In this document: piece after piece, positions 33,731-35,106 of the stretch
Layout of the letters: each line of letters starts with the position of its first letter
How positions within the stretch are numbered: position 1 is the stretch's first letter
Origin: Methanooceanicella nereidis
GTDB taxonomy: Archaea > Halobacteriota > Methanocellia > Methanocellales > Methanocellaceae
NCBI RefSeq assembly: GCF_021023085.1
Contig: NZ_PGCK01000014.1
Span: 1-64,000, forward strand
Reading direction: 5' to 3'
DNA length: 64,000 bases
Notes under the pieces: model-generated
The model's database searches: none
What the model was told of the DNA's origin: nothing
Seen by the model: only the letters and a program-made list of their open reading frames with translations
Translations under genes and position numbers: made by a program

Positions 33731-33820
33731 TCAGAATCTCTCAGGATGAAGGAGAACGTATGCCATATAGGCAAAAGCCACTATGATAAACGCCGCTACT
33801 ATAATGTCCCCTATAGCCAT
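33731..33820 (-). CDS. kdpF: Potassium-transporting ATPase subunit F
   Basis: 29 aa (MAIGDIIVAAFIIVAFAYMA then YVLLHPERF). It is a single hydrophobic helix with the C-terminal L-x-P-E-R-F typical of KdpF, which packs on KdpA and stabilises the complex. The start is 33818-33820 and the stop 33731-33733. kdpA begins 10 nt later. It is usually missed by automatic annotation. Confidence 0.92.
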   Translation of the reverse strand: MAIGDIIVAAFIIVAFAYMAYVLLHPERF

Positions 33821-33995
33821 TAATGTAAACACCCGGGATAATTAGAGGTTAAACTACCGTATTAAAATAAAATATTATCGGAGGGAAAGATAAAATGTCC
33901 GTAACGTCTTCTTGCATAAAACCAACAAAAAATGTCGAAGGCCGATAAAAATAAAACGAGAAGTGTATCACTTCTTTAAAAAAGTTCAAAAGGAC
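33821..33995. promoter_or_regulatory. kdp promoter region
   Basis: 175 bp upstream of kdpF and downstream of the Cys-Gly micro-gene. On the minus strand an AT-rich AATATTTTATTTTAATA (33860-33876) is a candidate TATA region, with GGTG before the kdpF start. No operator could be identified. Confidence 0.4.
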
Positions 33996-34073
33996 TTACT
34001 TCTTTTTCTGTCCTTTCTTTTCTTTTTCATCCTTCTTGGGCTTACTGCCGCATCCACATCCGCATCCTGCCAT
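33996..34073 (-). CDS. Cys-Gly-rich micro-protein next to hypB
   Basis: 25 aa: MAGCGCGCGSKPKKDEKEKK followed by GQKKK. Start ATG (34071-34073) is preceded on the minus strand by AGGTGAGCTT, a strong ribosome site, and the stop is 33996-33998. Three cysteines alternate with glycine, then a very basic/charged tail, so it is a likely metal binder. It begins 58 nt after the hypB stop on the same strand. Bacterial HypB often carries such a Cys-rich nickel-binding motif at its own N-terminus, which this HypB lacks. The functional link is inference. Confidence 0.6.
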   Translation of the reverse strand: MAGCGCGCGSKPKKDEKEKKGQKKK

Positions 34074-34131
34074 AAGCTCACCTCTTATTATTTTATATTT
34101 AAGAGTGAATGCTCTTTGTACAAATACTTAC

Positions 34132-34779
34132 TCATGTAATCAGCATGTCTGCAAGCTCTTCGATGCCGACGCCCTTTTTGAGGTTGGCTTTGATTATCCT
34201 GATGTTTGAGTTGTGCCGCCTCATATCGCGTTCCATGCGTTCTACGCTCGCGCCGACCGCTTCCGCGAGGTCGACCTTATTGATTATGCCTATCTCGCAT
34301 TCGCGGAACATTGCAGGGTGCTTGTTAACAACGTCGTCGCCCTCTGTCACGCTGACTATGACGACACGCTTATGGCTTCCCACGGGGAAATCCGTCGGGC
34401 ACACCATATTGCCGACATTCTCTACGAGCAGGACGTCAATATCATCGAGGGGTAATTTATGAAGTGCATGGTGTACCATATGCGCATCCAGGTGGCATTC
34501 AGTACCCGTATTTAAGTTCTGTGTGGGAATGTCAAGCGCATGTATGCGCTTGTAGTCATCGTCGCCATAACAGTCGCCAACGATAGCACCGACCTTATAC
34601 CCTCTTGCCTTCAATACAGGGGTTAGTTTCTCTATAAGCATCGTCTTGCCTGACCCGACAGCTCCAAGGATGTCTATCGACCTTATGCCGTGCTCATCAA
34701 GATGCTCGCGGTTCTCTTCCGCCTGCCGCCGGTTAGCCTCCGTTACGCTTACGCCAACATTAACTTCGATCTTGTGCAA
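34132..34779 (-). CDS. hypB: Hydrogenase nickel-incorporation GTPase HypB
   Basis: 215 aa from TTG 34779 (preceded by GGTGAT). P-loop GAVGSGKT (K45), the metal-binding C95-H96 in GTECHLDAHMVHHAL with a further Cys in GNMVCPTDFPVG, and the guanine motif NKVDLAE. It delivers nickel with HypA to NiFe hydrogenase large subunits such as FrhA here. It lacks the N-terminal CxxCGC nickel motif of E. coli HypB. hypA is not next to it. Confidence 0.95.
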   Translation of the reverse strand: MHKIEVNVGVSVTEANRRQAEENREHLDEHGIRSIDILGAVGSGKTMLIEKLTPVLKARGYKVGAIVGDCYGDDDYKRIHALDIPTQNLNTGTECHLDAHMVHHALHKLPLDDIDVLLVENVGNMVCPTDFPVGSHKRVVIVSVTEGDDVVNKHPAMFRECEIGIINKVDLAEAVGASVERMERDMRRHNSNIRIIKANLKKGVGIEELADMLIT

Positions 34780-35106
34780 ATTATCACCAGATAAAAATCA
34801 TTTTCATTCAAGAGGTGTCTTATAAATCAAATATTTGTCGGCAGCAGTTTCCGCCCTGCCTAAAATATCTTCAATAGCCCGGTATCACTTAATGACTGAT
34901 CGCATGGATGCATATCTTGCATGGTTTCGCAGATATTCATCGCACAGGCGGCTTTCAAAAATGTAATTACAAATTTTATAGAAGAGATTTATTATCGTCG
35001 ATTCATAACATATGAGCTATACGCTGGCCATATAAATTAAAAGGACATTCGACAAGCGAATAAGGACCATGGTTTTGCGGATCGGAGCAGAAAAGGCGGT
35101 GAAAAA
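34780..35106. other. 327-bp gap between hypB and the PAS kinase
   Basis: A divergent intergenic region. A TATA-like CCATATAAATTAAAAGG (35028-35044) lies about 65 bp before the kinase start, and GGCGGTGAAAAA immediately precedes that ATG. Nothing else recognisable. Confidence 0.45.

Follow-up and report, generated by a model that had tools for sequence, protein, structure and literature searches.

A conserved Cys-Gly micro-protein gene beside hypB in Methanocella-type methanogens, probably encoding a metal-binding and most likely nickel-buffering peptide

Methanogens need much nickel, which is used by MCR, CO dehydrogenase/acetyl-CoA synthase and hydrogenases. In the window analyzed here, a stretch of 64,000 nucleotides from Methanooceanicella nereidis, hypB is followed on the same strand by an open reading frame of only 25 codons, whose predicted product opens with alternating cysteines and glycines and ends in a run rich in lysine. 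We asked whether this frame is a gene, whether its cysteine-rich head is a nickel motif that split off from HypB, and what its product might do next to HypB. The comparison set consisted of four genomes of the Methanocella family (the window genome, G001, G002 and G003), and genome-wide counts were taken from pattern and protein searches. The features on which the argument rests are the following.

34829-34840, minus strand: CGACAAATATTT box, conserved 52-59 nt upstream of the hypB start codon in all four genomes and probably the core promoter for hypB and the peptide
34132-34779, minus strand: hypB, with a TTG start and a product beginning MHKIEVNV; Cys95-His96 and Cys127 are kept, and Cys70 is family-specific
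34074-34131, minus strand: 58 nt spacer separating the peptide gene from hypB; its 5' end carries a AGTATTTGTA-like box in three of the four genomes
34078-34084, minus strand: ribosome-binding site GAGGTGA of the peptide gene, present in all four genomes
33996-34073, minus strand: peptide gene of 25 codons, with an ATG start, its stop codon at 33996-33998 and the product MAGCGCGCGSKPKKDEKEKKGQKKK; orthologues in all four genomes
34047-34073, minus strand: peptide head, codons 1-9 (MAGCGCGCG), identical in all four genomes
33999-34046, minus strand: variable Lys-rich peptide tail, 16 residues in the window and 88 in G003

The initial annotation had described a 25-codon Cys-Gly frame with a ribosome site 58 nt past hypB on the same strand, and the coordinates, the ATG and the GAGGTGA are all confirmed; the sequence immediately 5' of the ATG reads AAGAGGTGAGCTT. 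It had staked the gene on conservation of the frame and its ribosome site in relatives. Both are kept in all four family genomes, and the same peptide was found next to hypB in G001 (product MAGCGCGCGSKPKKDEKAKDSKKKA), G002 (product MAGCGCGCGSSTKPKTAAKATKKAAPKKK) and G003, where it reaches 97 residues through an AKP/AKK-rich tail (L048:1501-1791). Each of these genomes contains a single match to MxxCGCGC, and it always lies immediately 3' of hypB. At the DNA level, six of the 27 sites in the head vary among the four genomes, all of them third codon positions and all synonymous, compared with 48, 19 and 160 variable sites at the three codon positions of hypB. Six variable sites would all fall on third positions at random with a probability of (1/3)^6, about 0.001, a figure that ignores shared ancestry and is indicative only. 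Pairwise DNA identity averages 0.88 for the head and 0.78 for hypB, but 0.52 for the spacer and 0.25 immediately past the peptide stop. Given the same place in four of four genomes, an invariant head with synonymous changes only and a kept ribosome site, the open reading frame is, on comparative grounds, a real gene kept by selection throughout the family set, and its Cys-Gly micro-protein is evidently translated. Frame and conservation can be regarded as established.

The same holds for the linkage to hypB, whose stop codon lies 58, 59, 58 and 58 nt from the peptide ATG in the four genomes. Downstream of the pair, the window has kdp genes, G001 and G003 have the gene for ribosomal protein L15e and then a proteasome/exosome-type gene cluster, and G002 has an Fe-S protein gene; hypA occupies a separate location in all four. 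Since the flanking genes differ among genomes, it is the pairing of hypB and peptide that is the conserved unit. As an aside on the kdp region of the window, an open reading frame of 33 residues before kdpA (33731-33832, minus strand) matches KdpF weakly (PF09604, 17.0 bits; cutoff 21.2) and is possibly an archaeal KdpF.

The two genes would form a co-transcribed unit. We considered the CGACAAATATTT box as a nickel operator or regulon signal and rejected this, as its other genomic matches lie inside coding sequence (a transporter, a sensor kinase), which argues for a core promoter of hypB instead. A second promoter serving the peptide alone is possible because of the AGTATTTGTA-like box that opens the spacer, and the T-runs that all four genomes have past the peptide stop are consistent with an archaeal terminator. 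The computed duplex energy of the ribosome site ranges from -11.5 to -12.1 kcal/mol for the peptide and from -8.3 to -9.5 kcal/mol for hypB across the four genomes, in each of which the peptide starts with ATG and hypB with TTG. From this stronger site and start codon, we predict more copies of the peptide than of HypB, a ratio that would fit a buffer or carrier more readily than a subunit with one-to-one stoichiometry.

Is the head a piece of HypB that became detached? At the N-terminus of E. coli HypB, a CxxCGC motif holds nickel through Cys2, Cys5, Cys7 and the N-terminal amine (PMC7055735), and the initial annotation proposed that this metal motif ‘has become’ a separate peptide in the present lineage. 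It was correct that the window HypB begins MHKIEVNV and bears no N-terminal Cys motif: none of the 38 residues between its TTG-encoded start and the P-loop is a cysteine, and the alignment to the E. coli-type model PRK10463 begins only at model position 78, which leaves the protein without that N-terminal region. The window protein scores 250.9 bits against TIGR00073 (cutoff 121.2) and matches the solved HypBs of Methanocaldococcus jannaschii (PDB 2hf8) and Archaeoglobus fulgidus (PDB 2wsm) at E about 1e-60. Both solved proteins also lack the Cys motif, as do 26 of 26 HypBs from other genomes and families of the phylum, all of which have about 38 residues ahead of the P-loop. By this sampling, archaea of this phylum normally have a tail-less HypB. 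None of the 26 other-family genomes has a Cys-Gly, Lys-rich open reading frame in the roughly 1.5 kb that follow hypB. With neither the motif nor the peptide in these relatives, the proposed split is not supported, and the peptide is, as judged from this distribution, a lineage-specific addition. The parallel drawn with CxxCGC does not hold in its spacing either, as the extreme N-terminus of the peptide reads MAGCGCGCG, a CxCxC arrangement.

HypB itself retains a potential acceptor. All four family HypBs keep the metal residues of the G-domain known from M. jannaschii (Cys95, His96, Cys127), with Cys95 and His96 in ECHLD and Cys127 in VGNMVC, a site that a review ascribes to every GTPase-type HypB (PMC7055735). 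They also share Cys70 (window 34570-34572, GDCYGDDD), which adjoins the conserved Gly-Asp at residues 68-69 and is replaced by Val or Ile in 26 of 26 other HypBs; a genome search for Cys70 used a pattern so loose that 299 of 394 genomes matched, and is uninformative. This cysteine may be an extra metal ligand or acceptor, or it may reflect drift, being one of 18 family-specific residues in HypB.

The N-terminus of HypB offers a separate observation. In all 30 archaeal HypBs compared (the window protein and L002-L030), the first residue after the start is a potential metal ligand, His in 28 and Cys in two (L028, L030), which can be likened to the N-terminal MHE nickel motif of HypA. Residues 1-9 of A. 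fulgidus HypB are disordered and required for HypA binding (PMC3287977). From these ligand residues and the A. fulgidus data, a nickel hand-over site common to the N-termini of HypA and HypB is conceivable.

Outside the family, the head is rare. Among 394 genomes of the phylum, MxxCGCGC matched seven times: once in each of the four family members, in two proteins with a DGC domain and in one short frame. The other 390 genomes thus include three with the head pattern and none with it beside hypB and followed by a Lys tail. In a collection of 84,980 species, which may omit records near the window's genome, MAGCGCGCG was found in 14 records, with the Lys tail and the hypB context only in the Methanocella record. 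The matches in Streptomyces, Planctomycetes, Pseudomonas and others were set aside, most of them, by eye, being low-complexity readings of GC-rich DNA or lacking a Lys tail; the exceptions are a DGC-domain protein of Delongbacteria and a MarR-like protein of Desulfobulbaceae (MAGCGCGCGCASKKKE...). In three DGC-domain proteins (PF08859; L050, L051, L036), the N-terminal MxxCGCGC head is nearly identical to that of the peptide. The MarR-like winged-helix protein, from a Desulfobulbaceae MAG (L037), starts MAGCGCGCGCASKKKEE, with a Cys-Gly head and a short Lys run, and its MarR_2 match of 26.4 bits falls just below the cutoff of 27. These occurrences show that the Cys-Gly head serves as an N-terminal module elsewhere. 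The peptide itself matched no curated family or solved structure in Pfam, NCBIfam or the PDB, and specifically no DGC domain (PF08859) follows its head in the Pfam search. We found no description of it in the open-licence papers searched.

The tail ranges from 16 to 88 residues across the four orthologues, Lys-rich and net positive in all, and gives the whole peptide a computed net charge of +5 to +29. Within a single genus, the 88-residue, histone H1-type-like tail of G003 contrasts with the 16 residues of G001. The family HypBs are acidic, with a computed net charge of -6 to -8, making contact between the two proteins plausible.

On these features the product is probably a small metal-binding peptide, most likely nickel-buffering, that works with HypB. 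The Cys-Gly-Cys-Gly-Cys head would bind Ni(II) through its thiolates. Because the second residue is Ala, the initiator Met is expected to be cleaved off, and N-terminal amine/amide/thiolate arrangements favor Ni(II) and Cu(II). The mature chain would then begin Ala-Gly-Cys, so that a square-planar site for nickel could arise from the free amine, backbone amides and thiolates. In acetyl-CoA synthase, Cys-Gly-Cys forms the distal nickel site, which is square-planar, and nickel is also bound by this tripeptide on its own (PMC10299331). The basic tail would hold the peptide soluble and close to acidic partners such as HypB, and the peptide, acting in trans, would buffer or donate nickel to load the G-domain site. 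That it is a Ni(II)-binding buffer or donor for acidic HypB is a reading we place just short of an even chance. It is favored by the invariant head, the adjacency to hypB, the predicted excess, the opposite charges and Cys70 as a possible acceptor; against it, 26 other archaeal HypBs work without such a peptide, the heads on DGC-domain and MarR-like proteins indicate that the head need not mean nickel, and the AKP/AKK tail of G003 resembles nucleic-acid-binding tails.

The last two points lead to other readings of the same peptide. Three cysteines close together and no histidine suit a wide range of soft metals, the same head is found on proteins of other organisms, and no family or structure match fixes the metal, so the product could be a general metallothionein-like peptide whose thiols take up Zn, Cu(I), Fe or another soft metal. 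It would then share the operon for general metal homeostasis and not serve HypB directly. The strict linkage to hypB in differing surroundings argues instead for a nickel-delivery role, and we consider this alternative unlikely, if still a serious one. More doubtful is that function resides in the Lys-rich tail, which would bind nucleic acid or another polyanion, with the head as a redox or metal clip. The lysine content and positive charge of every orthologue, and above all the H1-like repeats in G003, would fit such a binder, but the invariant part is the head and not the tail, tails of 16 residues, with three acidic residues in two genomes, would make poor nucleic-acid binders, and the partner gene is hypB in every case.

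Less probable again is that the open reading frame acts in cis, translation of its Cys and Gly codons sensing charged tRNA or translation state and so controlling expression of a neighbor or mRNA stability. A short frame with repeated Cys codons at a constant 58-59 nt from hypB would fit such an element, yet the downstream genes differ between genomes, and in an Rfam search of the locus no family reached the gathering score, the one sub-threshold match being at chance level. The synonymous-only changes in the head, the variable tail that conserves its charge and the extension to 88 residues in one species all point to a working protein product. That the frame arose by chance, as its mere 25 codons and the lack of a match in the family libraries might suggest, we find scarcely credible: the comparative data already contradict it, and the case illustrates that a 25-codon gene without a Pfam or NCBIfam match can show clear protein-level selection.

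Viewed as a nickel peptide, the product resembles several known systems without coinciding with any. It shares with the E. coli-type HypB site an N-terminal three-Cys cluster with a Cys-Gly-Cys core, an association with HypB and the potential use of three thiolates plus a free amine. It differs in being a separate polypeptide with CxCxC spacing (Cys4, 6 and 8, or 3, 5 and 7 without Met) and a Lys-rich tail, and in that HypB of the Methanocella lineage is of the short archaeal type, normally without an N-terminal site. The Cys-Gly-Cys tripeptide of the acetyl-CoA synthase distal site is present in two overlapping copies, but in a free peptide rather than in a large enzyme active site beside an Fe4S4 cluster. 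Helicobacter pylori, with its high nickel demand, has Hpn and Hpn-like, small, separate, His-rich nickel-storage peptides; the present peptide is likewise small and separate and probably metal-rich, but it has no histidine. Archaeal zinc-finger micro-proteins carry two C(P)XCG motifs (PMC10716476). The peptide is, like them, a very small archaeal Cys protein, but it lacks the paired CPxCG motifs: its three cysteines fall in a single CGCGC run, and none of the four orthologues has a second motif.

The peptide bears on how short archaeal HypBs, without the E. coli N-terminal site, are supplied with nickel; even in E. coli HypB, the role of that site is described as yet to be clarified (PMC7055735). 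We tentatively propose, with somewhat less assurance than for nickel buffering as such, that it may represent a trans-acting nickel metallochaperone of 25-97 residues, with a Cys-Gly-Cys head and a Lys tail, confined to methanogens of the Methanocella type. Such a carrier would be the detached, convergently arisen equivalent of the nickel site at the N-terminus of E. coli HypB, and its acceptor would be the short archaeal HypB (Cys70, Cys95, His96, Cys127). As a conserved free peptide encoded beside hypB, it provides a small, synthesizable object on which this may be tested.
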